A stretch of DNA of 64,000 nt, from positions 25,029,105-25,093,104 of the forward strand of contig OZ020523.1 in the NCBI GenBank assembly GCA_963971425.1, read 5' to 3'. This DNA comes from Bryoerythrophyllum caledonicum. Taxonomy: Eukaryota; Streptophyta; Bryopsida; Pottiales; Pottiaceae. Both the position numbers and the translations under genes were made by a program. The notes beneath the pieces are model-generated. The model ran no database searches. It saw only the letters and a list, made by a program, of their open reading frames with translations, and was not told the origin of the DNA. Positions 1,606 to 59,900 of this stretch are shown here, one piece after another (within the stretch, counting starts at the first letter, position 1; every line of letters begins with the position of its first letter).

Positions 1606-1639
1606 GACGATAGACAAAGCACTGGTCTAGGGTCTCCGC

Positions 1640-1760: not shown

Positions 1761-1773
1761 GAACCCTACACCA

Positions 1774-4110: not shown

Positions 4111-4204
4111 ACCTCCCTCTTGCCATTAGTCCCCGATCCTACTCAAACATGACCCTCTCCTACGTGGCAGCTATGTGGTGCCAACATGGCTGCCACGTCG
4201 CCTG

Positions 4205-4306
4205 TTTTTTACCTAGCGGGTAAGTACACCCTCAGTTGACTTACCCGGACGGGCGAGAGCTCTACCGGACGGGCGTACCAGACGTCCGTCGAGTATGACA
4301 ACCCTG
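4205..4306. repeat. hAT-1 right terminus with subterminal repeats
   Basis: The terminal inverted repeat TATGACAACCCTG (4294-4306) is preceded by repeated GGACGGGCG and GACGTCCG blocks. Short subterminal repeats of this kind are where hAT transposases usually bind (family knowledge). Confidence 0.75.
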
Positions 4307-4311
4307 CATTA

Positions 4312-25870: not shown

Positions 25871-25875
25871 CCTCT

Positions 25876-31194: not shown

Positions 31195-31940
31195 CCTGAC
31201 GGGTCGCGAACATTGGGAACCGCACGGTCGGGGAGCGGACGGGCCGCGGATGGGCGCGGATGGGGAGCGGATGGGGATCGGTGAGAGCGGATGGGGCGCG
31301 GATGAAGAGCGTACAGGGACTGCGGATGGAGGTTGCGGATGGTAATTGCTGATGGGGAGCGCGTATGGAACGGATGGGTGCGAATAGGGCGTGGATGAAG
31401 AGTAGACAGGGGGTGCGGATGGGAGCTGCGGGTGGGGAGCAGATGGGGGCGGGTGGGGAGTGGATGGTTGCGGGTGGGGAGCGGATGGATGCAGATAGGC
31501 GCGGATGGGCATTGGACAGGGACTGCGGATGGGAGTTGCAAACGGGGAGCGTGTTGGGGGCGGAAGGAGGCGGGTGGGGAGCGGATGGAGGCGGGTGGGG
31601 AGCGGATGGGAGCGGGTGGGGAGCGGATGGGAGCGGGTGGGGAGCGGATGGGAGCGGGTGGGGAGCGGATGGGGCGGATGGGGGCGGACATGGACTGCGG
31701 ATGGGAGCTTCGGATGGGGAGCGGGTGGGGAGCGGATGGATGCGGATAGGCGCGGATGGGCATCGGATAGGGACTGCGGATGGGAGCTGCGGATGGGGAG
31801 CGGATGGGGAGCGGATTTAAGCGGGAGAAGAGCAGATGGGTGCAGATAGGCGCGGATGAGGAGCGAACAGGGACTGCGGATGGGAGCTGCGAATGGGGAG
31901 CGGGTGTAAAGCAGATGGGGCGGATGGGGGCGGACATGGC
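31195..31940. repeat. hAT-2 minisatellite, kinase-RING intergenic cluster
   Basis: The same GCGGATGGGGAGCGGGTGGG-type unit as at 28095-28780 appears here in the intergenic space between the divergent genes. In hAT-1 this position holds the GACGTC palindrome cluster. Confidence 0.85.
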
Positions 31941-35185: not shown

Positions 35186-35290
35186 AATGTGAACAGGGTT
35201 GTCATATTGGACGGACGTCCGGTACGCCCGTCCGGTAGAGCTCTCGCCCGCCCGATACAGTCAACTAAGGGTTGACTTACCCGCTAGGTA
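35186..35290. repeat. hAT-1 left end: target duplication, terminal repeat, subterminal repeats
   Basis: The 8-bp duplication is followed by the 13-bp inverted terminal repeat and GGACGG/CCGTCC-type repeats (GACGGACGTCCGGTACG, CGCCCGTCCGG). The right end at 60850-60946 carries the same kind of CCGTCC repeats. Confidence 0.8.
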
Positions 35291-35389
35291 AAAAACAGGC
35301 GACGTGGCAGCCATGTTGGCACCACATCGCTGCCACGTAGGAGAGCGTTATGTTTGAGTAGGATCGGGGACTAATGGCAAGAGGGAGGT

Positions 35390-35515
35390 GGGGCGGAGAC
35401 GTCCCCGCCCCTTTATAGGCAGGGACGGGGACGTCTCCGTCCCTATGCAGGCAAGGGCGGAGACGTCCCCGCCCCTGCTCATAAAGGGGCGGGGACGTCT
35501 CCGCCTCTTCATGAG
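35390..35515. repeat. Palindromic GACGTC minisatellite near left end
   Basis: Four GCGGAGACGTCCCCGC-type units; the counterpart of 3961-4110. Confidence 0.8.
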
Positions 35516-35986
35516 TTAGTTAATAGTGTTTAACTATTGACACTATGTTGGTAAACTAAAATTTATGTTTAGTGTAGTATACACTAAATGTGAACCTATA
35601 CACCAATTGCAAATGAGGCACTTAGTGTAGTGACATAACCGGACACTAAATGCCACTTACTACACTATGTATCAATTTTTGTAAAAATAATAAATTTATT
35701 TCTTTCACTTGTGCACATTTAGTGTATCAATAGTGTATCAATAATTATTTGTGCTTGAACAAATGCAAATCTCGAATTGAAAATTAAAGATTTGGACCGT
35801 GGACGTATCCAATATTGATTAAAATATAACATATGGCAATTGCCAAGTACACATATTCTTCTACGAAGATGCCGTATTGCCTATTTAACCACCACATGCG
35901 AAACTAATGCAGCTAATTAACAAAAAACTATTGTCGGTAACAACATACAGGCATAGTCCAGTTGTGGGGGGGTTTCATTAATGTAT

Positions 35987-37507
35987 CTAAAACATCTGGC
36001 ACAGAAGACCGTTCTTCGAGCAGTTGTTTTGCAACGCTGCAAATTTTAGCTTCAGGTTTATATATTGCTCCGTATTATTGCTGGTGAAATACGAAGTGTC
36101 CCAATATTCTTTCCAATTTTTTTCACAAATCCAACCCACCGCAAATGCATCTGCTGCCTTGGAGTAGAGGTGTGAGCGTTGCATGACTTCAAGCGAGTTG
36201 GTGGAGTCCTGCGGTCCAAAATTATAGAACAGTTCTGGTGCCACAAACCGTCGCCGCTCTCTCTCTAGTTGAAGCTCCTCCTTGAATTGATAACCATACT
36301 TTGATGGCTCATTCTCCACAACCCGACTAGAAAGCCCCCAATCGCAAATTCCGATGTACACCGTATCGGGTTTCCACTCATCAAAGTGGAGCAAAACATT
36401 CGATGGAGAGATGTCATTGTGTATATAATTCGCGTCGTGGCATTTCCCCACAATGACAAGCAACGATAGCGCGAGGTTCACTCGATTTTGGCGGTAAGTT
36501 TTTACCCACCGAAGCTCTTGGATCGACAATCCGGTATTCGGATGCATCTCAATCCGTTCAAACGGAAATGCTTCGTCCACTTTCGAGTCAAACTTGGACC
36601 AAAAACTCTGGAGAGATCCCCCATTCCACCAGAGCGTGTACCCTTCCATAGTTTTCGGGTGGATGTACGCAAGTCTAATGATCCCTGAATGCACTACCGG
36701 ACACCCTCCAGCCTCGTTGATGATGTCTCGGCGCTTCTCCCTCTCGTTGGTGTTGGCCAGAGTCTTTCCGGCGAAGTAAATCCAACTTGGAATGTTTTCC
36801 AATTTGGTTATCATCACCTTCCGTACAGCCCCATAGCCACCCACCGCGCTCTGCCCTGGCATTGGAATCACTTTAGCGCAACTTTCAAGCCACTTGAAAG
36901 TTCCTCCAACGCAGTGAGCCAAAATTTGCTCTTCAATGGTCGCTTTCCAAGATGCTAGATTCTTCTTACGGGAAGAAGAGTACTGTTGAACAAAGCCCTG
37001 GATCATCCTCATCTTTGCCACTAGTGCGCGCTCCTCCAGGTTTGAGATGCTCTCATCCTCCTTCTTCCATGTGACGTAACACCAGTTCGCAACGATATTG
37101 GTGGTCAGTGCGGTCACTTGTGTGTCCAACCACTCCGAATGCAACCAATAATCTGAGAAATTATTAAATTTCTCATATTTATCAAGGTTTGACATTAATT
37201 CGTGTCGCATGTCAACCGTCAACTTGTGGTATCCCTCTTCGTTGTGCGCCAAATAGCTCTTCGTCAACGCCCCTCTCGTCCGGCGGTTGTAAAACTCGAC
37301 GGCAATCCCTCTACACTCAACCATGTATTCGTGCGGGGGCATGTCCGGATTTGGTGACTTCTTCCGCCTCTTCCCGCTCGATGACGACGGATTCAATGAT
37401 CCCGAAGTCAACTCCGTGTTGGTGGACGGAAGAACCGTCTCATCAACATCATCCAAGTCCATAAATATTGGGCACTTCTCCATCGACCTACTTCCTTCTC
37501 CCGCCAT
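35987..37507 (-). CDS. Protein-kinase-like protein of hAT-1, copy B (506 aa, intact)
   Basis: It is the same length as copy A and differs at seven residues (for example Ser57 to Pro, Lys64 to Glu, Val69 to Ala, Ser111 to Tyr). All kinase motifs are unchanged: the VGGYGAV loop, FAGKTL lysine, HNDISPSN, DWG and APE. The open frame is intact in both copies while the RING and transposase genes of the same element are broken, so the kinase frame has either been lucky or lost function last. The start ATG at 37505-37507 is preceded by a TATA box about 190 bases upstream. The MULE insertion lies a further ~260 bases upstream and leaves this promoter complete. Confidence 0.85.
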   Translation of the reverse strand: MAGEGSRSMEKCPIFMDLDDVDETVLPSTNTELTSGSLNPSSSSGKRRKKSPNPDMPPHEYMVECRGIAVEFYNRRTRGALTKSYLAHNEEGYHKLTVDMRHELMSNLDKYEKFNNFSDYWLHSEWLDTQVTALTTNIVANWCYVTWKKEDESISNLEERALVAKMRMIQGFVQQYSSSRKKNLASWKATIEEQILAHCVGGTFKWLESCAKVIPMPGQSAVGGYGAVRKVMITKLENIPSWIYFAGKTLANTNEREKRRDIINEAGGCPVVHSGIIRLAYIHPKTMEGYTLWWNGGSLQSFWSKFDSKVDEAFPFERIEMHPNTGLSIQELRWVKTYRQNRVNLALSLLVIVGKCHDANYIHNDISPSNVLLHFDEWKPDTVYIGICDWGLSSRVVENEPSKYGYQFKEELQLERERRRFVAPELFYNFGPQDSTNSLEVMQRSHLYSKAADAFAVGWICEKNWKEYWDTSYFTSNNTEQYINLKLKFAALQNNCSKNGLLCQMF

Positions 37508-37695
37508 ATGTGATAGTCAACTCCCTACCGTGGTCGAAATTCCAAGTTGATGGTTTTAAAAAAACCGCAAAGAGTCAGGGTACAATAAATGGGCCAAGCT
37601 TGATCACCCACCAAGCTCACTTTCAGGCCGCAAAGCGAACTGACACGTGAGGCCTAGGGAGTGGACTTGGCAGAGAATAAGGACAAAATCTCCTC

Positions 37696-37703
37696 TATTT
37701 ATA
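37696..37703 (-). promoter_or_regulatory. TATA box of kinase gene, copy B
   Basis: TATAAATA on the minus strand, at the same distance from the ATG as in copy A. Confidence 0.55.
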
Positions 37704-37724
37704 TGGTGTAGGGTTCTTTTTACG

Positions 37725-37912
37725 AAGACGTCTCCGCCCTTCCTGGGCAGAGAGGAGACGTCCCCGCCCCTGCCCGGGGTGGGGCGGAGACGTCCCCGCC
37801 CCTGCCTGGATAGGACGGAGACGTCCCCGCCCATGCCGCGGAGACGTCCCCGCCCCTGCCGCGGAGACGTCCCCGCCCCTGCCGCGGAGACGTCCCCGCC
37901 CCTGCCTGGGGA
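37725..37912. repeat. Palindromic GACGTC minisatellite, kinase promoter cluster (copy B)
   Basis: Seven GACGTC-centred units, against four at the same place in copy A. The last three are exact tandem repeats of a ~24-base unit (GCCGCGGAGACGTCCCCGCC). The copy-number difference shows the array expands or shrinks between element copies. Confidence 0.85.
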
Positions 37913-37961
37913 CCCTAGACTAGTGCTTCGTCTATCGTCTATATAATATCGTGCACACCCC

Positions 37962-38050
37962 GGGGAATGCTAGTATGCGAGCGTAGAGCGGGAGCGTAGA
38001 GCGTGGAGCATAGAGCGTAGAGCGTGGAGCATAGAGCGTAGAGTGTAGAA
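37962..38050. repeat. MULE left terminal inverted repeat with subterminal AGCGTAGAGCGTGGAGCATAG array
   Basis: About 35 bases match the right end closely. The rest is a short tandem array of GAGCGTAGAGCGTGGAGCAT units, of which the right end has a shorter version (51165-51205). Confidence 0.85.
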
Positions 38051-38493
38051 TCTGAGAAAGTGAGCGAGAAGCAAAGTTTTTTTTGAAAAAAATATGAATT
38101 CTAAAAAGAAGAACGGTTACATATAACCGTGAATTCTAATATAAACCAAAAAGGGAAGGTAAGAAACTTGTCTATCGAAGTTGGACCTATGGCCGTGAAA
38201 GTAAAAAATGACAAAATTGTGAACTGAAGTAAGTCACATAAGCTTCAGATGCATATATATTAATAATAACAATCGCATGTTTTATCACAGAATTTCAATC
38301 AAAAAAATTGTGAGATGAACAAAAAAAAAACATAAACACCATTTAAGGGCTTCATACAAGCCAAACGAAGTACAAATTAAGTGACTGTAAAGCACATAAA
38401 AACAACAACCTATAATAATAAAGAAATCAGAATTCTATATGGAATAGACTAGTACTGTGCATAGTAATAGCTGAACTACCACATGAAAGCACG

Positions 38494-41400
38494 TCAGTGC
38501 GAGTGGGCTGAAGATGAACTACAGTCGGAGTCCGAGGTCTCCACATTAGAGTCCATGGCGTGGTCGTCAATGAACTCCAAAATGCGAGGATCTAGTAAAT
38601 GGACCCTAGAAGTTGGCCTAGACTTCTTAGATACAAAATCTCTAGCAAGGGCCTCAGCGTATACAGGTAGCTGAAATGGTCTGGGAGGGCTTGGAAAAAA
38701 TTCAGGATTCGCAAAGAAAGGAGCACTCGAATTCTTCACTTCATCAACAAGCCTAGACAAACACCCAAAAAACATATTAGAGTAGATTTATATTAACCAA
38801 ATATTTCAAAGAATGGAAAATGAAGGGCAAACTTACTTACTGAATACAGATGTCTTCACGATTCGTTGGACTGGTACGTCATCGTCATCCAAATCAATAG
38901 AAGAAATTGAAGGAAGTGGAATATTTGCTTGGGGAACCACCGGTGAGCGCATGATTGGAGCAATGAGGGCGTCAAAAATAGCCTTGTCTTCTTCAAATGC
39001 CAATATGTGGCGATGAGAAGCACGACAAGCATAAATGCTTGACCCTATAAGAAGACAATGTACAAGATGAGAGCATTGCAAGAGTACATCGAAAAAAATA
39101 TTCATATTGAGAATAGAACTTAGAGGAGAAAAGGTAGACTAACCAGTTGCCGCTGTGCAATCCATGATGATGTCGCCTGGTGCAGAACATACCTCAATTA
39201 GCATCTGCATGAGAGTGTGGGATTTTTCACGAGGACCTCGCCAAGGCACGTTACCATTCATGACTACGTCATCGCGGACACAAAAGTTTTGAATAGCGTC
39301 GTCTTTACCAACATCGACGCCAACCGCTTGATGAGATGGTACGAATTGGAATGAAAATTTTCCAACTGACTCTTTCACCAAGAGAGATATACGAAAGAGC
39401 AAAGTCTGCAAAATTATTCAGATTAGAATCGAATGAAGATTACAGACAACTTTGAAAGATAATGAAAAACATTAGTGAAGCATTACCGTTGCTGTTGGAT
39501 CGGCAGCCGAGGTGAGATGCAAACGATTCATGCCCATCCAAGAGTGAACAATCTTGTATCCGTAGGTCATGCAACAACCAAGTAGGTTAGATTTGTGGTC
39601 ACGGCTCATAGGATACATCACCAAAATTCCACCATGGTCGTGGAGGACTGCTTGAGCGAAGTCAAACACTGGCACCAACCAATCATTGGAGAACTGGTTC
39701 CAAAGAGGGATGGGTGCAGGCGGAGAGGAGATGTTCGGCACATGAAGACCTTCAGGAACATCCACCAGTATGAGGTCCACCGCAGGCTTCTTACTCAAAA
39801 TTCCATTGAAGTACCGGTCCTTGTCACTAGAATGCTACATGGAACAAACGAAAAAAAAGGAGATTAATCACTGGTATTTAGAAATAAACAATCCTATGAA
39901 ATGCCTGCTTAACCATATCAAGCAACACACATACGATACTCAAGCGATGAAAATATTGACGTAGTCTATACCATATTCTAGGTGAAGTAAAATACAATAA
40001 TGGAGAAAAAATAGGATATACCTTGGTCAGGAAGGTGAGGACATCGGTGAAGCTTTTTGAACTAGAGCTGCTCACCGTACTTGCAAGAGCACCAACAGAA
40101 ACATTCAGAATTAATTCATCAATGTCAGGCACAGGGTCCAAGTTACGAGGTGTTGGCGAGGGTCCATGTAGCAATCGCTCTTGAGTGAGGGAGAAATTGG
40201 AGGAGATGTCGACCATCTCTGCCTTCCTCTTTGTCCCTTGCTTCACGCCCTTCACTTGTTCTTTCTCAGTCAACTTGAGAAGCCTCTTCAATTTCTTATC
40301 CTCGGTTTTCTTCTTTGCCTCTTCCCATTTGTCAACCTTCCTCTTATCAGATGCCTCCCGCTTCTGAATTGCTCGAGCTCTGGCGTCTGCATCCAAACCA
40401 GCAAATTCGTCGTAATCGGGCTCCACCACTGCCAAATCCTTCAAGGACTTGAAGAGAGCAGCTTCTTCAGGTGGAGTGAACCCTTGAGTGCATTCGAGGT
40501 ACCAAGGGCAAGCTTGTAGATACCCAGTGGTCCAATTCTTTAGCTGAGTCGGGGAGAACATGCAGTCAGGGGAGGTTCGATCCAACCATGTACTAAGGAA
40601 GGGAGGTAAGTCTGCTTTCTCAATGGCATTCTTGGGCAAAAGTTCGAGCTTGAAATACCTGCACAATGATTGAAAATTATGGAGAATCATAAAATTGTAG
40701 GGAAGTCCAGGGAAATATGGGCAATATGATGTAGAGAATCTGGTGGTTGTATGAATCCAAAACAATAGAGGAAAAGAGTTTAGGACACACCTAAATATCA
40801 ACCTCTTGACAGCAAGAAGGGCGCCTCTGAAATCCTTAAATGAGTCGGACTTTTTGAAGGCATCAGCTCCTTTGAAATTACCCGTATATGCTTGATCCCA
40901 TAGCTTCATTCGCCAACTCTCAATGTATTCCGGAAGGGTGCGCGGCTCAGTTGGAGCAGAATAGTCAATTGGCAAATCATGAGCGCGAGTAATTGACTCA
41001 AACATCTCGACGGCAGCTTCTTCCAACTACGCATTGAATGGAATTTGGCACATTAGAGAATTACACAAGTATAGTAGAAGAGGAACTTGTCAGCGAGAAA
41101 AAAAAGACAAGATTGAATACTGGTGATCATGATATCAATGAATCAAAAGTCACTTACACCGGCATACCAACAGGCCTTGGCGAGGAAGAAAGTTAGCTTA
41201 TCCTCATTAGCAGGGCGCGCTAGAAATCGTCTAGCCTCGCGCGTAGGTCCAGATGCATTGAGCCATTTCAACCACCTTACTTTGAAAATTGGACTTGCAT
41301 TAGCTGTAGCAAGCAGCTGTAGTTTCTCAAGAGTCAACTCCGGTACTGCATATAAGCTCCAGTGCCTCTCAATCTATGAGTTAGCAATTGAATATAGTTA

Positions 41401-42739
41401 GAAGTTAAATATACTAGGTAAAGATGCAAAAGCATTCAATCAGAATAGCAAAGGAGTATTACCTCTTGCATGAACTCTCGACCATGCGCCGGATTTGCTA
41501 CTGACACAATCTTGGATAGTTTTTTGTAGAACTTTTCAGTTGATTCCTTAATGGATCTCCTCATTGTAGATGCCACACCTTCCATAGAAATCTCATCTGT
41601 TGGTGTATCCTCATTGTACTTACGAACTGCCGCATCAGCCGCAGCAGCAATCTCTTGCTGCAAAGACTCACAAGGAAGTTGCCTCACTAATTTATAATTA
41701 TTGATTGATAATTTCATTGGAAACTCATAAATTCATCGATTACATCTATGTGGGGCTATGAAGAATACCTTAAAAATGAAGCTGGTAAATACGTCGAGTG
41801 GCATTGAGTACCAAGTCTTTCGCGCACTCTGTTGGCATACTTTCACATCCTCAACACTCAGAAGCTCATTAAACTTGTCAATGTCCATCACCCCATACTT
41901 TTGCACACGGTACAATGTGTGTACCAAGTTTGTTTTGATGTGAGAGTTCTCAGTATGCCTGCCATAATCAAACCAATAAGAAGTGACGAAGGAGGCCTTC
42001 CGTGATCATTAAATACTTTGAAATTTGAAGGCATTATCATGGAAGAAGACATCAACATTACTTACTTTTTAATGTCGTGCATGACCTGCATGGCCACGCC
42101 AATTCGGTTTCGCGTGTCCAAAAGGATGGAGTCAACCGAAATATGCCACTCCTTTTCCGTAACATGAAGGCGCTCAATGTGATTCATCCAGGCAATACGT
42201 CTATGGTTCCCATCACAGACAAAGAACTTGAAGTCCACAAAGTGCTTAAGTGCTGAGATGGACATGAGCTGTGAATTAAATTGATCATTAACCAAGTTCC
42301 ACAGTGGTCCCCATTTCACCTTCTCATCTGGAGTAAACGTGGCGGTCTGCCCTTGCTCATCTGAAATTGAGACATAAAATACGCGAGCACCCTCTTCGTA
42401 TCCATGAACAAATTGTTGTTCAAGCTTCACCAAATCACAGGCCAAGGTAGGGCGAACCATTGGCATGGGCACTAAGCGGCAGAGCGGAATGCGCATTCGA
42501 GATAGCTCGTTCGATGTCAATCTCAGGCTGGCGATCGTAGAGACAGTATCCATCTTATGCGTCCGCCTAATCTCATCTTCCAAGAGCTCACTCTCACCTG
42601 CATCATCTTGCATCAATACACGTCCATCGATGTCGATATCTGATTCGATATGAGGTTGATTATTGTCTTCCATTGCGGCAGAGGAGCTGGGCTCACTAGA
42701 AGCAAGATCCATGCGTTTATCCTGTGGGGTCTGCAACAT
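38494..42739 (-). CDS. ParB-like/beta-class amino-methyltransferase-like protein, ten exons (1074 aa as modelled)
   Basis: Exons: 42739-42066, 41958-41769, 41657-41463, 41373-41158, 41026-40791, 40658-40022, 39834-39487, 39405-39144, 39044-38837, 38752-38494. All introns are GT-AG, phases match, and the sum is 3225 nt with no internal stop. Residues 84-183 look ParB-like (IPLCRLVPMPMVRP, then VCDGNHRRIAWM). The middle is helical with a Lys/Glu-rich, NLS-like region about 580-645. Residues 735-960 follow a beta-class N4/N6 amino-methyltransferase in circular-permuted order: motif IV-like VDLILVDVPEG, then HTLMQMLIEVC and motif I-like GDIIMDCTAATGSS, then HILAFEED. The DPPY and FxGxG residues are replaced, so catalysis is doubtful. 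An in-frame exon at 43037-42987 (17 codons, phase 0) may precede the first exon listed, in which case the ATG used here is intronic. Confidence 0.8.
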
Positions 42740-43189
42740 GGGATAGAGACAGAACTAGGTAAGAAATATGTTCATGAGCGTCAAGTAATATGTTCATAAA
42801 TATATAAGTTCATAAGTAATATGTTTATGAGCTATTGCCGTTAGACTTGCATTAGCAAATGCATGCAGAAGTAAATGCCCTAAACATCTTGCTACAACAT
42901 ATCCTATAGGTTATCATTAAACTGTGCTGTAGATGTAATCTCATTAGAGGGAGACATGATTATAAAGGTAGCACGTGGAGGCTTACAACAGTTCGAGAAG
43001 AATCTTCCAGCTGGTCTTGGTGGCTCACCTCCTCAACCTGAATGAAATCAAACATAAATAATTTGAATTAGTGGTGGTTGCAAAATCAGCCTGATTGGTA
43101 GCACTATCGTCACCACATTAGTATTGACATAAGTATTGACATGCCGAACAGTCCACCAATTTCTAATTGACTAGTTGTACGTAAATGGC

Positions 43190-44889
43190 GATGCCAAATC
43201 TGTCTCTCGGTACCGAGAGTCCAACTCTCCAGTACTAACTCACGAATGAAGCAGCTGGTACTGGACCTAAACTCCAGCAGCTGGACCTTACGTCCCTGCA
43301 TTAATATCGCCATCCACAAAACTTCACGTGCATTAACATCGCCAATTACGTTAGTGTATAAACATTCACCAGCCACAAAATTCAACGAGTACTCAATCTC
43401 GGTACCGAGAGTTCAAATCTCGACATAGATTGCTGCATGATAATCGTGAGGAGCACTTCATGACAATCCACCAACGACCACGTCGCGATCCCGAGCAGCA
43501 GCGCCACCGAGCCACTGGACCTTACGTCAGGGCATTAACATCGCAATCGAGACTCATGCACCATTCACCAGCCACAAAAATTAATGAGCGATAACTCAAT
43601 CTCGGTACCGAGAGTTCCAATCTCGACATTGACTGCTGCATGATAATCATGTTGACTCCATGATAATCTTGTTGAGTACACCATCGTGTTGAGCACATGA
43701 TCGACTTTGACTACATCATGTCAATCGACCAAAAGACAAGCACCAAGAAAATCGGCCAGACGACACACGTCTCTGCATCACTTACCAGCCGTAGAGTGTA
43801 CTGCTATACTGCTGCTATGATAATTGTTATGAGCACGTCATGACAGTCAACCAGACAACCACACGTCGCGACACCGAGCCACCGAACCATCTCGGTACCG
43901 AGAGGCACTCCATCAACATCGAATCATGCATGCGAAACCACCGAACCACTGGACAACTCGTCAAAGGACTCATGCCAGCTATGAATTAAGTGCCGAGATG
44001 GTTGAAGCGGCAGAGATTGTGGACCGTGAATTTCTATTCGGGGCCGAGATGAGCTGAAGCGGCCAATCATCATGCAGAAACTTAAGAGCAGTAACTTCGT
44101 TGAAGAGCAGAAACTTCGTTGAAGAGACCCATTGACCACTGTTGTTACTATAATCATACAATCTCGGTGATAATTCTGGTTTGGTTAATTTATCTCGTTA
44201 GCAGATTACTTTTTATCACTGTAGCAGATTACTTTGTCCCACTGTATCTGATTACTTTGTATCACTGTAGCAGGTTACACATCTACTTTGTAGCAGATTA
44301 CACTTCAGCACTGTAGCAGATAATTTTGTAGCTTTGTAGTACTAGCGCAGTATCCACTATCATCGTGACTCATGTATCTACTATCGTCGAGACTACCAAC
44401 CATTATCTCGGTACCGAGAGACACTCTACTGACATCGATTCATGCAAAACCACTTACATCTAGGCAAGCGATCGGACGACGACGTTGTGAACCCGAGCAA
44501 CTGCGTTTAATACATCTCTATTACAATCTTGATAGGAAGCATAAGATAGCATCTTGGTAAACACATCTCGGTGTTATTCATGTGGTACAAGAAGTCACCC
44601 ACGAATGTTAAAACTTAGACAGTAGATCTTTTTAGCACTAGCGATTCACAATGAAGAACCTAAACGGTGAAGATCTTATGGTCACGAGTTTGTTTCTTGA
44701 TCTACTGAACAATGAAGATTAAGTAAACACGAATATGTTTCTCGATCAAACATGCACTGCATGCGGTTCATTCACCAACTCGACTACTCCAGCTTTACAT
44801 CTGACTTCGACACGAGCAGCTTCGAGACAGACCCCAAAAACCCCGGAATGCACAACACATACAAAATACGTATCATCTCGGTGCCGAGA
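43190..44889. repeat. Spacer with ~200-bp repeats carrying a 14-bp palindrome TCTCGGTACCGAGA
   Basis: Perfect copies are at 43205, 43397, 43600, 43890 and 44406, and one with a single change is at 44876. Half-sites (CTCGGT or GCCGAGAT) are near 43985, 44038, 44163 and 44566. The first three sit in degenerate direct repeats about 200 bp long (ATTCACCAGCCACAAAA occurs at 43364 and 43563). A seventh copy lies near the right end at 50811-50824. The array lies between the two divergent MULE genes, as a shared promoter or transposase-binding region would. Confidence 0.8.
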
Positions 44890-46756
44890 TGGGTACGTTG
44901 GATCTACGATTTAAGCTGCACAACTCGTACTCAATGCACATCAATAAACTTTGTATGGTCGACATACCTCGTCTTCTATCACGCTCTGCTGCCGGCGTCG
45001 CCCTCTCCCGCCTCTGCCGACTCCCCCGCTGTTGCCCTCCCCTCTGACGTTGCCATCTCCAGCGCCGGATGCCCTCGTTCGCAAGGTGCGCCCTCCCTCC
45101 ATGACGGCCCTTGACCAGAAACTGAGTTGAAGCCGGACGGCACTTCGAAAGGAGATGAACATAGACGAGGTTGCAGCGACCACCCAAGACGAGGTTGCAG
45201 GGACTCTCGTGCTCCCACCCCAAACAAGCGAACCCCGATGAATCACCCCAGCCACGATGCGTCGAGTACGCCGCCAACTGCGCCTCACTTGAAATTGGAA
45301 TACTGTTGCAAGACCACGTCGTGGAAATCACTCGGCGGGATCCTTGAACTGCGGCATGTGACTTCTAATTGCTCCTCCCAAGTTCGCAAGTGCCGCCGAG
45401 GGCTCACCGCTGGATGATTCCAAATAAAGTCGAAACTCAGCCACTGGAAGATTGCTAATTTAGCAAGGGCCGCAAACGTCACAATAAGCTCGTTTGCTCA
45501 TAATCAGAAAATTCAGTTTTATGGTGGACGTTACAGATGCTCTCTCCGGCGTCTCGAGATTCAACCGCTGCTACCTTTTGGTGATTGGACTATTGACCTG
45601 ATTTTCTGTGGTAGGGTATCGGGATTTCAGTGTTTTCCGTCATCACCGTCCAACTGTACCGTGCTTTAGGTGCATGATTGTTGTACATTTATTGCACATA
45701 AGAGATGAAACAGTGTTGTAATACGACGTCACCAAGATTCTCTATGTAAAGAGTCGACCCTGCGCACTACGCAGTGGGACCAGAAATTATCAGAGCTGCA
45801 ACTTCTGTCCCATCTTCTCATCCGATTCCAACTAACTCACCTTATTGGAAGGCGAGTAAATGCTCAGATATCATGCTGATTTAGTTCATAAAGAAAGATG
45901 GAATAGCTCGACAAACACAAGCAGCTGAAGAAGAAGATTATGTAGATACTAAATGGTCATCAGCGTTTCCTGATATTGCTTCTCGAATGGGCAAGTCAGG
46001 AGGAATATGGTGCCAGAGCGTATGAGATGTATAAACGGAAAAAATGAGAGCATGAGGAAATGTCCTATCGCCTTATTCTGCACCAATGAATTATGAGTTG
46101 CTTTGCAATGAATGTTCTTGGGCCCAACCCTATGCAAGCAAAAGCATTCCCATAGTAACCTCAGTTCTAACAGGGTTTACCAATAGTTCCCCCAAAATTA
46201 TAAAATAATCATGGGACGTGTTCGAATTTCACTTTCACTTGGAAGAGCTTGCATGTCAAATGTAATTTAGTACATCAATGTTTAGTGGACAATAATCACG
46301 AGTTTTGCCTCATTGGTGCACCGGAATAGTTGCAACTGTGGCTAAACCAATGTTTCATGTGTCTTAGCCGCCTTTCTCCTCTAATCTTAGCCGACATGAT
46401 TATGGATTGTCACTGTTTGTCAATTGATAATCTAATTTTGAAATTGGATAATACTAATGTATTCAAATTCTTTAGTATATCACTCCATAATAGATCCACC
46501 ACTTCAAATGTCATGTCTATTTTTTTCTGGATCGATGCACATTTGTTGGTTGGAGGAACTGGCCGTTATGGCATATTCACCATGCCCCGATAAATTTAAA
46601 TTTCTTCTGTGTACAAATCAGGGGACTTCCATGCTTTCAATGGTGACATTTTCCTCGTATATTACGTCTTCACGCAACATCCTTCATTCGATAAACTAGT
46701 GCGTTGTCTTGTTGTTGTTCTTGACTGGTATGAGTACAATCATATCGCTAAGTTGA
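44890..46756. other. Spacer upstream of MULE transposase; no gene seen
   Basis: Only short unconvincing frames are found. The C-rich piece around 44990-45120 reads proline/serine-rich in one frame and arginine-rich in another. Confidence 0.5.
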
Positions 46757-49700
46757 ATGGCAGTTGTTCGGGCAGATGGCGTACCGGTCCCTATTTCATT
46801 TGCTATCGGTGACATGGGACACGCGGTTGTCACTGCCTTTCGTCTGAGTGTTCGTTTTCGTTTAGCTGAGACCTCATTGCACATCGATGAAGAGCTTTTT
46901 GATAGTATTACTGGAGAGCTAACGCATACAGTTGGTCAAGAACCTGTACATGGTTCCTCTCCAACGCAGTGGCATTTGCGCCCCGGTCGATACTTAGCTT
47001 ATGGCTTACCCCAATCTGATATTTGGGCTACATCTCACGACGGTCCTCCTAGAGTCTCGACCACTAGCACTCCCCACATGCCTACATCTAGAAAAATAAA
47101 AACAGAGTCAGGTTTTCAGTTCATTGAAATCGGAACAGATGATTCTGATGACTCCTCACCTCCTCGCAAGCTTTTTAGACAGTCTCCTGCTCTTTCATCT
47201 CATTCACGAGGCACATCATCAGTACCTGTTTTCTCAGGGTCAGATCACTGTGTTGGACAATCCATTGTTCCTTGTCTTCGAAAGCTTTGTCTCACAAAGG
47301 GATCTAGGAACCCCTTCAAAAAGATTGATTACGAGTCAATTTCAATCCATGTGGTTGATTATCTTCCACCTGTCTTCAATGGTGACGTGATTTTTGAATT
47401 ACCACCGATCCAAATTTCTGGAGCTCAATGTCAAGCAAAGCTTTTAAGTGGCATGGAGAAGCGCTATGACGGGCACGTCTGGTCAAACACCAATACAACA
47501 AATATCAAGAACGGCGATGGGCTTTCATTTCGATTCTCATCATGCGTGGGACATCTACGTTGTGACAATGCCAACTGCGAATACCTTACTCGAAAACACC
47601 GCGTGGCAGCTATCAATGAAACGGAATGGGATGGATGTTCACCCGTCCCATTTCAAGTTGGCCCAGTACCTCCATCAGGTTCGACCTTAACTTGTAAGAT
47701 ATGTTCTTTCGTTCCAACTTGTGTTGCGAGTTGTGCAGCCAAAATCTACTATATTGTTGGAAAAAAGGAGATGAGGCGTGCCTGTGTTCACTTCGGTGTT
47801 CATGATCACCCTGTAAAGCATGGACTCTGTCGTGATTCTAAGGAAATGACGCGGTCTCTCATTTCGGATCAAGTCCAAAGAACTCCCACTGCAACTAACT
47901 CTTCTATTGTCCTTGAGGCAAGTAAGGAGTTTCTGGGAGGGTTGCTTCTTCGTCCTGAAGGAACACCGCCTCTGGAGTTTGGACTTGACAAACTCATGCC
48001 AGTTCTTGAGAAGTGCAAATACATGAGCTCTCCAAGTATTCGAAACGAGGTGAGCAGCTTCAAGCATTTCCGACGGTTTGGTGTCATGGATAGCATAACA
48101 AAGCTCCGTGGAAGTAGTAATTGGGCTTATGTTCAAGAAAGTAAGTTCCCGGGTCAGGGATCCGATACAGACAAAGTTTTTGTCTTCAAGATGTCAGAAG
48201 TTGGCCCAGGTAGCGGTGTAGATCTGGTTACACGAATGCAACCTGGAGGTGATCTTCAAGATGCTTGGATCATGTTTGATCATGTGAAGCGAGTGAAGGA
48301 GTGGACGACAATTGCATGTCATGTATATGACCCAGGATACTGTCGTGTGATGACAATTGCTGTATGCGACATGCAGTCCGAAGATTCAGTAGCACAAATG
48401 AATTTCTGGAAAAATTTGAATGCAGTGATGAGCAGACATGGTATTGCGTTACCTTATTTCAAGGGATTTATGGCTGATTGCGCACAAGCAAACTGGAATG
48501 CGGTGCGCATCGTCTACGGGAGTGGTGATCCATCGGAGCCGATGCTCAATCGGGAACGCACATGTCTCTTTCATTGGACTCAATCAATGGAAAAACACAC
48601 TAAAGCAGATATTCGCGCTGACCTTCAAGATCAACATCGGAAGTTGTGCAAGCAGTACAAGGATGCGATATCCGTGGCGGAGTCCGAGATTCGATATCAT
48701 GCAATCCGAGCTTGGTGGCACTCGTCCGGGGCAACGACTGAAGAAGGACTTCGACGGCTGGAGCTTTGGTTGGCTTTTTGGCACTTCCGATACAGGCAAT
48801 GGGGCGGATTTATGTACATTGTGAGGTTCTTCAACTCTTGTACTTGGTTTTTCTCAAGAAACTTGTTTAATTCAATTGCATGTTAGTATTCTTTTTAAGA
48901 TTCCATATTTATGCTACCACATGTACCTCTTGTGCATCTGATGACATGATTGAATAGCGTAGTCGTTGTTCTTTAACTTTTCAATTCTTACTGCAGTGAC
49001 TACAATTTCATTGTTCAGGACTTACCAGCCAATGAACTCGCGGAGATGCCATCCTGCAACCTTGCGGAAACAGTGCATAACAAATGGTTGCAGCAGTCCG
49101 GAAACAGAGGGAATGACTTATATGTTGCCACTGTTGATGATTATGTCAGGGCATTCATGCAGATGGTTCGGTATTACCAGTTTTTAAAAGGTGAGAATCC
49201 TGGAACCGGTCCTGGTAAAGCCGAACTCCAAATACGGGTAGCACAGAGGTATGCTCAGCGAACCGGAAATCCGAAAGGACTTAATGAAGCCATGTCTACT
49301 GTACCAGGAGTAGGAGAGTATTGCACAAGGGATCCACATTTCGAAGGTGAGGAAGTTTTTGGCTCTCGGAAGCGGGTGTCGGATTTGCCGCCTGGATCTG
49401 AGCATGATTCACACCGCCCCGACAAGGTGAATTTTTCTCGACCACGTGTACTTACACGGTCTATCCAAGCGGGTCCACCTATGATTCCTCTGAATACAAT
49501 TTCAGAGGATTCCTTACCTCATGCGGTAGAAGAAGAGGCTGAAATCCATATGTCAAGTGGCCCATTTAACGCATCAGCTGCACCTCCAGTCACTCGCATA
49601 GAAGAATCAGCTTGTGTAGAGTCTGAGTGGCACATTGCACGGTTGCCCAAGACGTCGGCTAAAGCATGCTTTGCCTTACAAGCTCTAACGAGGAAGAAAT

Positions 49701-50478
49701 GTGTGGCTAAGATTGTGCAAGGGAACAAAGGAACAGCTGCACCAACTTATACAGGGAATATGGATAATTACCGGAAGGACAAAATTGAAAGGATGCAATT
49801 CTTCTTCTGCAAGGATGACATTGAGCGGTGCGTTAAGGGTTCCAAGCGGAAATGGGTTCTTTCAAAGCCTGAAGTTCCAAGCGTTTGGCCAGTCAAGCTT
49901 GGAACTAATCTTACACCAAAAGAGATATTGGATTTTCAGAATGCAGGGTTCCATCTTCCTCAACGTATTGAGATGTCTCCTCGAAAGCTATTTGGGAATT
50001 GTGACCTACCAACAGATTTATCAGGATTTCAAGTTCGCCTGTTCCTGACGACCATCCGAGTACACGGTCTGGGAAGAAGATTAGGAGAAATCCTAATGCA
50101 CCAACAACAAAACAAGCAAACAATTGCGCTTCTGCACTCACCTTAAAGGCAGATATTCGTCAGGTAACTTTGATTCCCAATCCCGGATTTGGATGCATTG
50201 TATTGCTTGATTCAGGCATCGCACCTTTGATTCAACAATACATCATTACAATAAGCTCGTTTCCCGAGTGCACTTGTCCTAATTTCAAGGAAATGTCAAC
50301 GAAGGCGCTAGGAAAGAGGGGGCAATGGGCAAATTGCAAGCATTTGTATTTCATACTGATTGCCATCTGCCAATTTAGTGCGGAAGTAGATGCATTTATT
50401 CACGCTCCAAGCTTTAGCTTCAATGAGATTAGACGTACTCTTGAGAGCGGCATCTTGAGGCAAAGTTGCAACATATAG
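46757..50478 (+). pseudogene. MULE-like transposase, two exons, one late frameshift
   Basis: Exon 1 is 46757-48820, the GT-AG intron is 48821-49018 (phase 0) and exon 2 starts at 49019. Residues about 250-375 hold a Cys/His cluster (CVGHLRCDNANCEY, CKIC, then CVHFGVHDHPV) of the WRKY-GCM1/FLYWCH kind often found in MULE transposases. The DDE-like core follows: WTTIACHVYDPGYC and VMTIAVCD, then GFMADCAQANWNAV and CLFHWTQSMEKH. The C-terminal end has a SWIM-type CTCPN...NCKH motif (about 50272-50342). A one-base shift near 50010-50040 is needed to reach the SWIM part, so this copy is probably inactive unless the shift is a sequence error. It is divergent from the methyltransferase-like gene. 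Confidence 0.85.
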
Positions 50479-50810
50479 CTAAGTGTTATTTCTCTCTCCA
50501 AGTACTTGGCCAATGCAGAGGTATATCGGGTTGACACTCTAGAATTCCAATTGAAATTTTAAATGTAGTGAGACTAAAGGGCCACTACCCCGTTCATTCT
50601 ACTCTAAGGTTCATCCTGGTTGTTTTTTGATCGTGTCATGCATGAGTGTTATTGACTTTGGGATGGAGTTTCAATAGATTGAATAGAATGATCTTGACTC
50701 AAAATGATTTGGGACACTAATCGTATTTGATTTGGATGGTAACAATTGGTTTTCATCTTGCAGAATTTAAATCTTTGCGTTTTTTTATAAGAATTCAACA
50801 TTCAAAGATG

Positions 50811-50824
50811 TCTCGGTACCGAGA
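50811..50824. repeat. TCTCGGTACCGAGA palindrome near MULE right end
   Basis: It is embedded in a longer near-perfect palindrome of 28 bases (50804-50831, flanks AAAGATG and CGTCTTT), about 400 bases from the element end. Confidence 0.8.
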
Positions 50825-51159
50825 CGTCTTTAGGGAACGGGTAGCCTGTGCATCGCCCAATCTTCGAATATCTTACAGTCACTGAAGTATATTTTTTTTG
50901 AATTTTCAGCATCTCCTCTGCAATCTTGCATGGCCCTTATTGTAATGTTCATTAATCCAGAACCTGATTTCATAGAGTTTAACAACCACGGTTGTAGGGC
51001 CACACCCTAAATCCATGTTCCTAGGATCTAAGTGCTTGATCCACGGTTATAGGTCTTTGCCCGTGAACCTAGGTCCACGATTGTATGTTTCAAATTTTTC
51101 CTTCAAAATTCTCAATAAACTTTTAGAAAATTCCTTACATTTTTTAGAATTTTTAAGTC

Positions 51160-51224
51160 CACGCTTTTGTTTCCATGCTCCACGCTCCATGCTCCCGCTC
51201 TACGCTCGCATACTAGCTTCGCTC
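51160..51224. repeat. MULE right terminal inverted repeat
   Basis: In reverse complement it reads GAGCGAAGCTAGTATGCGAG and then GCGTAGAGCGGGAGCATGG, matching the left end apart from a few bases near the tip. It is followed by the second copy of the 10-bp duplication. Confidence 0.88.
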
Positions 51225-51352
51225 TGCACACCCCTAATTGTCCCCGCCTCACATACTCCCTCTTCATCCACCTCTTAATTGAGTTGGTTGTGGGCGTCGT
51301 GTGAGGACTTCATCCATTCGCATCACATACATCATTCAGATTTTCCCCACCC

Positions 51353-53637
51353 ATGGCCACGCCGGTAAAAATGAATAAAGAAGAACGAGACAAGAGTCGA
51401 CTACGATCGGGAAACAAGCAGCGGAAGAGGTTGCATGTGCTTCGGAATCCTGATAAATTGGCTTTTAAATGTTGGGAAGAAGTTCCGGAGCCATGGAGTT
51501 TCGAGGATTGGGCAAACTTCATCGAGTGGTGCCATATCGACAAGGCTTTCCCGGAGGAGCGACACAATTATCACCGACGCTTTCACAAGGCAAATTTATG
51601 GAAGTGCACCGACGAGGCGTTCAAAAATCGGTGCATTGAAGTATACCAGGTCTAGTACGACATCCCTTATATCAAACGCAATGAAGTAAATCTCTTCCTT
51701 GCGCGAGGTGTCCAGGCAGAGGTAAAGCTGAACAAGAGGGTGGATTGGTCCACCTTGAAAGCCATAGGAGATAGCATAATAGTTCCTTCTCCGGCGAATG
51801 GATTGATTCCAATGGGGACACAGAGGTATCTAGAAGGCGGATTGGGCAAATCGATGGCGAAGACTGAACCGGTCGATACGTACGAGACGGATCCCTCAAA
51901 CACGGATACAGACTCTGATGGATCCCACGTTCCAATCACAAGGAGCCAAAGGACACAAGCACGCACCAAACGAAGGAGGGCAGAACAAACGGTTAACGTA
52001 GTTGTTAACGATACCGTTAATGAAGTTGGGGCTCTTGTACAATCCCCCGCGGTTGTTGATCGAACGTTAGAAGCCTCCACTGGTGCTATTTTTGCGTCCA
52101 CTATCCAAACCTTGGTGAACCAATTGGAAGGAAAGACAACAGAACTATTGTCATTGCGCGATGAGGTTCGCAAGTTGAGAGTTGAAGTCAATGATAAAAA
52201 CATTGTTATTGACCAGCAACAACGTGATATGGACGAGCTCCGACTTGTCCTTCAAACTAGTACAATGACCACAAAAGATCGGAATCCACGACGGGAGGAA
52301 TAAGGGCTTGTACGCGTGTCAACCCAAGACCATTCATTGTCGTTTGATGAGGCCCCTACCAACGCAGACAAAGCTATGGTCAACAAAGAAGAGGGTGCGG
52401 GGGGTGACGGTGGCAAAGAGCTCGCTAAAGCGCTTGAAGAGAATTCAAGACTACAAAGTCGCTTGGATGTGTTGGTAGAACATTACTATCAATGGAAGTT
52501 GGCATGCGTCTTCACGGCTGATCGGTCCAGACAATTGGTGGCGGAATTCCAAAAAATCGACAACAACTATACCGAAAACAACCAGGAGAGGGTGTTTGGT
52601 TTGACATCGTGGGCCCTCGTAGATGGTCTTTTCAAGATGGATGAAATGGCGATGGTGAAAACCGCTGGTGGGCAAACAACCATCGATTGGTCCCGTTATA
52701 AATGGGATTTCAAAAAAGAGGTTTCATCCACCCTCGATCATCGGGGCAAATCCATGTTATTGTGGCCACAACCTTCGAGCTTCGTATCCGACGGTACGAC
52801 TTGCTCAATTTGTCTAAACCCATTTGGTCCAAAAGGTGGGATGCATCTAGGCACTTGTGAGCACTTGTACCATCCATTTTGCTTGATTAGCTTGATGGTT
52901 GTACGCCGGCGGTGCTCATTGTGCAAGGCCCCTTTTCACGAGCGATTGTACGAACTTTTTGGATTAGTTCCATACATGCCCCCGCATTGGGAGTTCAATG
53001 TGACGAACGCTCATGATCAATCACATATGTGGGGGAGGATTTGGTGTGGAGCTGGAAACTGAAGATGCACTCGTTGGATAAGATGCACCTCTCAAACGAG
53101 TGGGGTTGGGAAAGGGACCCGGAGCAGATTGTCCGGGTGTGCAAGAATTTGATCCCGTTAAAGGACAAATACGGTCAAGGAAAACGAAATTTCTTCTACC
53201 AATGCTTTAATGGCCATTGGGACGAGAACGGGGAGCAATTTTGTTTAGGACCTCATCCACGGCAATGGTTGTGGGCTGTTGACGGAGTTCGCATCACAGA
53301 CAACAACGAGGATCGCATTTCTCACGACATTGACCAACCAGACCCGCAAGCACTAAGACAATTATCGGAATCAGAGTAGAAAGAAATTTTCCGAAATGAC
53401 GGAATCGACTTCTTGCTCGATGTGCACAGTCCAGGGACACGGCAAGCGCTCGACCAGCTCATGCAATCCCAAATCCTAAGGGCCGTGTTGGATGAAGATG
53501 GACCAGCGAGGAGAACACGATCGGCATCTCGTAGACTTGTATTGGGCTCAGATGAAGACCTCCCTATGCACGTAGGGGCATACGACAACGAGGCAGGGGC
53601 GAGTGGCACTACTAATAGCCCGATGAATATTGACTAG
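51353..53637 (+). pseudogene. RING-H2/coiled-coil gene of hAT-1 (copy B), broken
   Basis: ATG at 51353 (MATPVKMNKEERDK). Domains in order: conserved N-terminal block with CHIDKAFPEERHNYHRRFHK; KRVDWSTL; acidic DTYETDPSNTDTDSDG; basic TKRRRAEQ; coiled coil (LEGKTTELLSLRDEVRKLR); RING-H2 (CSIC at about 52801, CEHLYHPFC, CSLC); C-terminal tail. Breaks: TAG at 51655-51657 (Leu in the sister copies), TAA at 52301-52303 (shared with copy A), a frameshift near 53035 at a G-run, and TAG at 53377-53379. The shared TAA means either that the common parent was already broken or that coiled coil and RING are translated as two products. The MULE lies 128 bases upstream and separates the gene from its likely TATA box. 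Confidence 0.8.
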
Positions 53638-56920: not shown

Positions 56921-59900
56921 GTGAATGCAATGGGAAGTCGAAGGAAGCAAACAAAAGAATGGGAACCTTGGTACAATTTTGGTGACAACGGGGGCAAAGT
57001 GAGTTGTGTTTTCTGTAACTATACTTTTAGCTACAAACGTGAGCGTGCGTTCGCTCACTTTGGATACGGCGCCAAGTCGGAGAGGTCGATTTGTCATAGC
57101 CTACTTCCCTATGTGCGAAGTCGATTTGCCAATTGTGGAAACATTGTTCCGCAACGAATGACGGGCGGGGACATTTATGGCGGAGATTCAGGCTCGAGTG
57201 GTCCATCAAGGGCACCAACTGTTCACACTTTAAGCCAATCTGACGTTCATAATAATGTGGCGGGTGGGGTAACAAGTGGGCCTCGGGAAGGAGTGCCTAA
57301 TCTCTTTGAAGGAAACGACCACGAACATGTGTCGGGTGGTCTTACCGCCTCGAATTCCACTAGATCTGGGCAACTACATCAACAACGGATGCTTGATGCT
57401 TTTAACATTGCAAAGAGGTAGGAACTTGATGAGAAGTGGGCGACTTTTTTCTATCAAGCGAATGTGCCTTTTAATGTGGCGCGAAATCAAGCGTTCATCG
57501 ATGCAGTGAGGGCGACATCTGTGGCAAAGTTTGAGTACACTCCTCCTACATATCACCAGTTGAGGACTAGATTGATTGAACCTAGGAGGTTGCAAATTGA
57601 GAAAGAGATTGAAGCCAAAGTTGGTTTTGCAATCAAGAATTATGGGGTGTCGATATACACGGATGGTTGGGATGATGTCCATCGGAGGCCCCTCATGAAT
57701 TTAATGATGTTGTGCCCCACTGGTGACGTATTCTTGGGAAGCATAGACACCAGTGGTGAGAAGAAGTCCATGCGGTACATAGCGGACCAAGTGAAAGTTT
57801 ACATTGAGAAGGTGGGTTCCAAGAATGTGACACAAATTTGTACAGACAATGCTCCCAACATGCTTGGAGCGATGGATGATATTATTCTCACATACCCGCA
57901 CATTCACAAGCAGGGGTGCATGGCACATGCATTGGATCTCATGTTGGAAGATTGGGCGAAGGTCCAAGAATTTAAAGATTTAATAGAGAGGGCAAAGAAA
58001 TTGTGCAAATATATTAGAAACCATAATTCGACAATGGGGACACTTCGTGAGTTGAGTCCAAACCTGCATATTGTAGTGCCCACTGAAACCCGCTTTGCTT
58101 GTAATTTCCTTATGTTGGATCGATTGGTGAGACTCAAAGGAGTGTTGGAGCAGTTGAAAGACCACCCCCGTGTTGTAAACTACTTTGCAACCCTACGGAA
58201 TAAACAAAATGGAGAGCAAGCAACAACCGCAGTGCATAATGTGGTGCTCACCATCGAAGATGTGGCCTTTTGGCAACGATGTCAGAATTACGTGCACATG
58301 ACTGGGGATGTTTTGAAGGCATTGCGTGTGTTTGATGGCCGCGAACCAGCCATGGGTCGTGCGTGGCTCATGATGCATAATTTGCGAGAACACGTGTACT
58401 CTTTGAGAGAGTCACCCTTTACTCTACGAGCTGACATAGCATCCACTCTTGAGCAATCTTTTGATGCCCGGTGGCAAATGGTTTTTACCGATGTTCACTA
58501 CGCCGGGGCGCTTTTGAATCTGTACGTCAAGGATAATGTGGCGCTTAGGGCTGACGGAATCGCACAAAGAGCATTGAATCGGGTTGTTCGCAAAATGATG
58601 GAGGTATTGAAAGTCTCATATGAGGACGTTCAATATGAGTTAACACAGTACGAGGAAGGCACAGGACCATATGGCCCTACCGAGGCATCTGACATCCGCC
58701 AGACAAAGCTTCAACTCCACCAATGGTGGGCCAGGATCGCAGACAAGGCATAGTCTAAAATAGTTGTTCGTATTCTAGCCCTTACGTGTTCAGCTAGCTC
58801 TTGCGAACGAAATTGGAGTATGTACTCGTTTGTCCACAACAAGACCCGAAATCGATTAACGGCAGAAAAGGGTGCGTCATTGGTGTATATTTATACCAAT
58901 AGCCGATGCCTTCAACAAAGACCAGGGGCCAATCCCGTTCGATGGTACAATGCGAACATTCACTCGGAGGATTCCGACCCAGATGCCTTCAAGCCGGTCC
59001 TGGTGGGTGAACCTAATCGTGAATTTGATGTGTTGATAGCCGAGGAAGAGGAGGAGCACAATATGGCAGCTCCCCGCTCTCCGCTGGAGTACCGTGGACA
59101 CCCTCATCTTTGGGCGGAAGGCGCCGATCATGTTGAGGAAACGAGAAACTATTACGGAGATGATGACGATGTGGAAGAAGAATTGGCTCAAGGTCGTTGG
59201 GGACCTTGGAATCAAAGTCCTCGTCGTAGTCCTTCGCCTCATCTTCCTTAAAATGAGGGCATTCATGAAGTGCAACCTTTGTCTACTTCCTCAGAGAGCG
59301 ACATCCCAAATGTGACTAACCTTGAAGAGCCTGAAATGGGGGGGGGGCAATGTCGGGAATGTTCGCGACGAGGACAATTCCCCATCAGACTATGGTGGTG
59401 GAAATGGAGATGGCGACAACAATGGAGCGGGAGATAACGCAGTAAATACTGCGACTCGAAACAACCAAGGATCGGTTGAAAACCGGTATGGCCAAGAGAG
59501 CCCTATTGGAATGGGTGCATCATCTCATAGCACTGGAGTCGTTCAAGGAGACTTTAACGCAAATGTTGTAAACACAACAATTGTAGGGACGACTCGAAGA
59601 AATGAAAGGGTTGTTAATCAGCGTCAGCGTTTTGACCCGGAATATGTAGACCCCGATGATGCTTTTGCATTCACAGAGGACCTTGAGCCACAACCATCTC
59701 CGGTTGTGGTGTTGCCTACGGTTATCAATGACCTGAATGTACCAACGCCGCCTTCCCGGAATTCCTCTTCTCCTAGAACGGCGAATGCCATGTATGGACC
59801 TTTCCAACGAAGTGTAGGCATTGAGGGGATGGGTCTAAACACTTCCGCTTCTACTACCAGAAATGGCAGACCCCCTTTGGCCGCTACAAGGACGCCTCTT

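Follow-up and report, generated by a model that had tools for sequence, protein, structure and literature searches.

A stretch of 64,000 nt from Bryoerythrophyllum caledonicum (Bryopsida; Pottiaceae; assembly GCA_963971425.1, contig OZ020523.1, positions 25,029,105 to 25,093,104; hereafter the window) harbors a transposon of 13,263 bp (37962-51224), in which a transposase gene and a ten-exon accessory gene diverge from a spacer that is enriched in short palindromes. The encoded accessory protein carries a C-terminal domain that is related in sequence to bacterial-type amino-methyltransferases and whose catalytic motif IV is altered. An earlier annotation made from the sequence alone (the original prediction) had described the locus as a Mutator-like element (MULE) with a passenger gene resembling ParB and beta-class methyltransferases.

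The element and its two genes

The limits of the element are defined by a perfect 10-bp target site duplication and by inverted ends that share an identical core of 27 bp (37969-37995 and 51191-51217), as had been predicted. The predicted empty site in the same window is also borne out: the flanks of the element have an inverted paralogue (1-1593 against 52827-51225 reversed, 96.6% identity; 1632-4306 against 37845-35194 reversed, 95.3% identity), which continues uninterrupted through the insertion point and has the decamer once, versus two copies around the element (Table 1). On the minus strand, the ten exons of the accessory gene are joined by GT-AG introns into a frame of 1065 amino acids (aa) without a stop. 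The predicted ten-exon frame holds at this length, but intron 2 had to be corrected, since comparison with related loci puts exon 3 at 41463-41657.

Copies of the element and its relatives are grouped below into families, with the window element in family 1. In the window copy, the transposase piece with the SWIM-like CxC...CxH motif (50005-50475) is out of frame with the preceding open reading frame (ORF), which extends to 50143. Since both pieces are contained in one ORF in a family-2 copy, the transposase frame of the window copy looks broken. Models of transposase exon 1 from five other copies have zero to three stops, with one stop in the copy that is 98% identical; among the copies read, none of family 1 had both of its genes in an intact state. 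Relatives of the transposase are abundant in public ORF collections, where 180 of 4605 candidates were retained at E ≤0.001 with up to 84% identity.

The assignment to the MULEs rests on anatomy, as the length of the duplication, the inverted ends and the CxC...CxH piece fit this group. Target site duplications of MULEs range from 8 to 11 bp (PMC6446971). A matching 10-bp duplication is found in four of the nine family-1 copies whose ends were examined (the window copy and three of eight others) and not in the remaining five; family 2 displays a perfect 10-bp duplication and clear terminal inverted repeats, and family 3 an 8-bp duplication match and inverted ends that are only loosely alike. 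The label MULE-type is supported to this extent, and profiles give it no firm backing: no Pfam family matches the window transposase exon, a single one of 24 aligned sequences matches Transposase_mut (E 0.034), and the profile PF04434 of the SWIM zinc finger, which many but not all MULEs have, stays under its cut-off both in family 2 (E 0.22) and in the window (E about 0.51). A search of the PDB with the transposase returned no sequence below E 1.

Table 1. Coordinates of the transposon, its genes and the associated sites in the window.
Feature	Position	Strand	Basis or remark
Empty site within inverted paralogue of flanks	1584-1593	-	single decamer copy, as GGGGTGTGCA
Target site duplication, left copy TGCACACCCC	37952-37961	.	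perfect 10-bp match
Transposon, 13,263 bp	37962-51224	.	ends, duplication, empty site, copy comparison
Left inverted end with GAGCGTA-type tandem repeats	37962-38049	+	repeat array 37979-38049
Accessory exon 10, stop codon	38494-38752	-	gene model
Accessory exon 9	38837-39044	-	gene model
Accessory exon 8, PF01555 match begins, motif I DCTAATG	39144-39405	-	gene model, profile match
Accessory exon 7, motif IV DVPE instead of DPPY	39487-39834	-	gene model, alignments
Accessory exon 6	40022-40658	-	gene model
Accessory exon 5	40791-41026	-	gene model
Accessory exon 4	41158-41373	-	gene model
Accessory exon 3, start corrected	41463-41657	-	related loci
Accessory exon 2	41769-41958	-	gene model
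Accessory exon 1	42066-42712	-	DGNHR motif behind ParB-like label
Spacer between divergent genes	42713-46756	.	7 TCGGNNCCGA palindromes vs 0.022 expected
Palindrome CTCGGTACCGAG	43206-43217	.	window scan
Palindrome CTCGGTACCGAG	43398-43409	.	window scan
Palindrome CTCGGTACCGAG	43601-43612	.	window scan
Palindrome CTCGGTACCGAG	43891-43902	.	window scan
Palindrome CTCGGTACCGAG	44407-44418	.	window scan
Transposase exon 1	46757-48820	+	invariant Cys/His and acidic residues, 24 aligned sequences
Transposase exon 2, first frame	49019-50143	+	several possible acceptors keep frame
Transposase continuation, other frame, SWIM-like CxC...CxH	50005-50475	+	Pfam SWIM E ~0.52, below cut-off
Palindrome CTCGGTACCGAG, near right end	50812-50823	.	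window scan
Right inverted end	51191-51224	-	inverted-repeat match
Target site duplication, right copy TGCACACCCC	51225-51234	.	perfect 10-bp match

A methyltransferase-related domain with an altered motif IV

The Pfam profile PF01555, which represents N6/N4 amino-methyltransferases of the CcrM/DpnA type, matches all four family members searched (best E 5.1e-7), with the window protein scoring 19.8 bits against a cut-off of 26.7. When the four were combined into a profile, its positions 732-945 aligned to CcrM (E 0.0068), with DvpeNL opposite DPPYNL; motif IV precedes motif I as in the CcrM/DpnA-type enzymes. These sequence comparisons relate the C-terminal domain to CcrM-type amino-methyltransferases. 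The predicted beta-class methyltransferase-like nature is upheld as ancestry, but not as a working enzyme, as the accessory protein has kept neither DPPY nor the glycine-rich motif I. The SAM (S-adenosylmethionine)-binding motif I of active beta-class amino-methyltransferases is expected to contain FxGxG, usually in the form DPFxGSG, and reads in essence DPFMGSG and DPFFGVG in the aligned rows of DpnA and CcrM; it is absent from five models of the accessory protein, which present DC[TN][AS][AS]TG. For motif IV, the accepted forms are (D/S/N)PP(Y/F/W) (PMC8885841), and these were found in none of 20 sequences, comprising the five models, among which two family-1 copies are nearly identical, and the motif IV exons of 15 further loci chosen across the identity range. 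Instead, all 20 read D[VILMC][PQ][EDNK][GN]L, with the first Asp kept throughout and Glu as the fourth residue in 17; DPPY and an aromatic fourth residue were each seen in 0/15 of the further loci. As DPPY is replaced in every sequence, classical catalysis looks lost, and the conservation of the replacements across families fits a domain retained for a function different from classical amino-methylation.

The closest published counterpart is Sola1-1_Ec32 of Ectocarpus, which encodes, on the strand opposite its transposase, a 1104-aa protein that combines ParB-like and N4C/N6A methyltransferase parts (PMC12477816). This precedent overtakes the remark of the original prediction that such a combination was unfamiliar. 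The Ectocarpus element differs in belonging to the Sola1 family and in its length of 21.5 kb, the comparison with the window element being one of descriptions; the part of that account available to us makes no mention of the catalytic motif, of palindromes or of retention across families (PMC12477816). Proteins of this kind are suggested by its authors to bind the transposon that encodes them and to modify it epigenetically (PMC12477816). By analogy, the accessory protein could be catalytically active as an amino-methyltransferase despite its unusual motif IV and mark element DNA, with the palindromes as its targets. The PF01555 matches and the invariant first Asp are in line with this possibility, but the loss of the aromatic residue in all 20 sequences and the altered motif I render it unlikely, as does the bdelloid N4CMT, in which a change of SPPY to APPA abolished activity, although this change also removed the first residue (PMC8885841). 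If the domain were a reader rather than a writer, the self-modification published as a suggestion for algal transposon proteins would need a check of the active site.

Mobile elements with a domain related to DNA methyltransferases (DNMTs) are also known among the retrotransposons of dinoflagellates and Klebsormidium; these encode C5 enzymes with reported de novo CG methylation (PMC5890265), whereas the window element is a DNA transposon with a probably inactive relative of amino-methyltransferases. A literature search that covered titles and the openings of abstracts, with subscription papers largely outside its reach, did not turn up a MULE described as carrying such a gene. Searches of a protein database with the whole protein and with the alignment returned no match among 7995 and 7998 scored candidates, where a ten-exon protein might be missed if the database consists mostly of contiguous ORFs. 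Among viral contigs, 0/60 and 0/89 pattern matches were confirmed.

The N-terminal part appears ParB-like by motif only. DGNHR is invariant in exon 1 of seven of seven sequences from six families and corresponds to the DG(H/N)HR-type motif that marks the ParB/sulfiredoxin superfamily. A Pfam search with seven members identified no ParB family and a single match to DUF1015 (E 0.075), and profile-profile comparison with eight sound ParB reference proteins (a ninth, H15, was in the wrong frame) remained within the range of shuffled controls. Membership of ParB by profile is unsupported on both counts, and the ParB label given in the original prediction reduces to one short motif.

Copies, families and selection

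The genome searched for further copies spans 437 Mb in 894 contigs. A query with the left end produced 41 matches, right ends counted too. The closest fetched copy measures 13.1 kb and is 98-99% identical to the window element; a third copy (at 32.71 Mb of contig C1, 93-96% identity) is interrupted, and its accessory gene model, which has seven stops, was left out of the counts. Five copies of 7-8 kb align neither to accessory exon 1 nor to transposase exon 1, one copy of 1.6 kb is without the whole middle, and further copies are truncated or rearranged. Since transposase exon 1 is equally unalignable in the copies without accessory exon 1, these are read as deletion derivatives, and both the 7-8-kb and the 1.6-kb copies look like internally deleted elements. 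Copies with the same ends and no accessory gene, combined with the gene on its own at unrelated host loci, had been named beforehand as the observation that would speak against a gene belonging to the element. Where this could be judged, the pattern was not seen, as the copies concerned are without transposase exon 1 as well.

Accessory exon 1 has at least 150 matches in the genome (the best 150 of 1743 candidates), exon 7 with the methyltransferase motif likewise at least 150 (the best 150 of 1594), and the transposase at least 144 places (the best 144 of 2516). Among the matches listed, exon 7 follows downstream on the same strand at 108 of the 150 exon-1 places, and a transposase lies within 16 kb of 44 of them, divergently in 43; the list of 144 transposase places includes no partner for the other 106, which on such lists weighs neither for nor against accessory genes that sit alone at host loci. 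Seen from the transposase, a divergent accessory exon is listed beside 47 of the 144 places and not beside 97. Two of these 97 were read, and both contain the accessory gene in divergent orientation with approximately 25-41% identity per exon. Given the divergent pairing in the listed pairs and at both fetched loci, the accessory gene looks, on the minority of loci read, like a core gene of the transposon lineage. The second, multi-exon divergent gene of the original prediction is therefore found opposite the transposase in several families.

Gene models from families 2, 3 and 4 encode proteins with 48%, 40% and 33% identity to the window protein and have nine intron positions in common with it; spliced alignment added one to three small introns to each of these models, which are perhaps not real. 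The modelled copies are not intact, as they contain two (family 2), one (family 3) and one (family 4) in-frame stops. Gene capture is frequent in MULEs (PMC6446971), and a host gene captured by chance as a Pack-MULE-type passenger would be a familiar case. However, the accessory gene recurs, with common intron positions and the same orientation, in families with proteins 33-58% identical to the window protein. Capture by one element in its simple form was rejected because of this recurrence in diverged families, and the likelihood left to a passenger of this kind is close to negligible.

The conservation of the accessory gene is supported by the ratio of non-synonymous to synonymous substitution rates (dN/dS), the check proposed in the original prediction. 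Three family-2 pairs gave 0.29, 0.24 and 0.25 over accessory exons 1-6 (705-707 codons). The one close family-1 pair gave 0.53, a value based on no more than 8 synonymous and 15 non-synonymous changes. In comparisons across families, dS is saturated and dN amounts to 0.49-0.73; the family-2 transposase has a dN/dS of 0.49-0.57, calculated from imperfect models. Two family-2 copies (C15 and C2:480500), in which exons 7-10 were not found, were kept for the exon 1-6 ratios and not used as full models. As a separate observation, the mutual alignment of two family-2 copies (L029/L030 and L031/L032) breaks off shortly after exon 6, at a homologous position in both; both lack exons 7-10, and their exons 1-6 are without a stop (dN/dS 0.29).

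Palindromes in the spacer and the proposed role of the accessory protein

The window contains six copies of CTCGGTACCGAG, every one within the element and five in the intergenic spacer. The core TCGGNNCCGA is found seven times in the spacer of family 1, twice in family 2, five times in family 3 and four times in family 6 (L040), where 0.015-0.022 copies per spacer are expected from 1000 Markov resamplings (0.015-0.059 when family 5, with no copy, is counted in); 103 kb outside the elements contain two, versus 1.2 expected. The palindromes reach beyond the core, and the flanking letters are specific to the family (ATCTCGG, CATCAGTCGG, CGTCGG, GCTTCGG), with ATCTCGGTACCGAGA, CATCAGTCGGNNCCGACTGATG and CGTCGGTACCGACG as candidate palindromes of families 1, 2 and 3, respectively. 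These family-specific palindromes around a shared core are newly found here, and they fit the idea of the original prediction that the gene may read marks or counter silencing.

Few transposon accessory proteins have been assigned a function. The closest working model is VANC, which is not known to have methyltransferase ancestry. VANC is encoded by a second gene of the VANDAL MULEs of Arabidopsis, whose non-coding parts likewise repeat short family-specific motifs, and VANC21 binds such a motif, which is enriched in its own element family (PMC5735166). The VANC21 motifs (YAGTATTAY) have one orientation (PMC5735166), whereas the window sites, for which binding is predicted, are palindromic and built around a shared core. 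A VANC-type anti-silencing protein is expected to bind motifs of its element and to remove methylation; of this, the window element and its relatives display the repeated family-specific motifs. On this model, the core of a MULE-like DNA transposon lineage would be a pair of divergent genes, one for the transposase and one for the accessory protein. The latter, with its DGNHR-bearing, ParB-like N-terminal part and its amino-methyltransferase-derived domain with a replaced catalytic motif, would no longer methylate; it would bind, probably as a dimer, the family-specific TCGGNNCCGA palindromes between the genes. By doing so, it would govern the promoter region common to both genes, most likely by protecting it from host silencing so that it stays open, in the way that VANC acts on VANDAL elements. 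This reading is the one we prefer, tentatively and as somewhat short of probable. A more specific version is doubtful, if attractive: the protein would be a non-catalytic reader derived from a bacterial-type amino-methyltransferase, and each family's protein would recognize its own palindrome, act on its own kin and co-evolve with its sites in the manner of VANC. In that event, the CpG in each half-site (TCGG/CCGA) would allow the sensing of cytosine methylation. With many families of one protein in one genome, and with candidate sites of their own beside most of those that were read, such co-evolution could be tested family by family.

Several observations weigh against anti-silencing control through the palindromes. 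The palindromes are tied to the accessory protein no more than to the transposase or to a host factor. Since the core was defined from families 1-3, only families 4-6 test TCGGNNCCGA, and two of these three are positive; the family-4 stretch (L041) has two copies, of which one lies in intron 5 and the other beyond the gene. The spacer of family 5 (L039) has none; a tandem array there repeats the arrangement in reverse, CCGANNTCGG, with 11 copies. The family-2 spacer holds only two. In the close family-1 pair, the dN/dS of the accessory gene exceeds that of transposase exon 1 (0.16), and the alignment of the N-terminal part to ParB domains by hhalign spans only 12 columns with a score of 19.7, where shuffled controls reach 21.0. 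On the side of constraint, the sites in 39 comparisons with other family-1 copies are 93.6% identical and their flanks 87.1%. Where the flanks fall below 90% identity, 11 of 24 sites are intact versus 4.1 expected, but these comparisons share history and local alignment can favor conserved spots, so that the support for constraint is moderate.

Other functions of the accessory protein can be envisaged. The protein may be a transposition helper comparable to mudrB of maize, or a ParB-like nickase that acts at synapsis or integration, with the palindromes bound by the transposase or serving as internal enhancers. Maize mudrB and yeast mutB are likewise second ORFs of MULEs; mudrB is reported as apparently needed for integration (PMC6446971), and a ParB-methylase fusion of B. 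cereus nicks DNA (PMC5512222). The persistence of the sites in copies without accessory exon 1 and transposase exon 1 is compatible with such a helper, but the palindromes are mostly located in the intergenic spacer and not at the ends, and we regard this function as a serious though rather unlikely candidate. Alternatively, a host transcription factor could use the palindromes as ordinary promoter elements, with an unrelated role for the accessory protein. Their position between divergent genes and their shared core would be explicable in this way; a fixed factor, however, does not predict family-specific letters around the core, which makes this explanation distinctly improbable.

Additional repeats and ORFs were observed at the loci examined. 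The spacer of L039 contains a tandem-like array of GCTGCCGACATCGGCAGC-type units with reversed half-site order (2873-8700). A large inverted duplication frames the window (1-4306 against 35194-37845 and 51225-52827, 95-97% identity) and holds two near-identical ORFs of 506 aa, at 1971-3491 (+) and 35987-37507 (-), that are protein-kinase-like by eye. Short arrays with the unit GACGTCCC(C/T)GCC, 23-32 bp, are present in the duplicated flanks (1645-1755, 3963-4076, 35390-35505 and 37722-37906), and the transposon adjoins one of them. Two related G-rich tandem arrays (28098-28752 and 31230-31939) are composed of units like GGGGAGCGGAT. Finally, an ORF of 279 aa (25875-26714) resembles, by eye, a Ty3-type reverse transcriptase/RNase H, and another of 429 aa (57464-58753) a hAT transposase.

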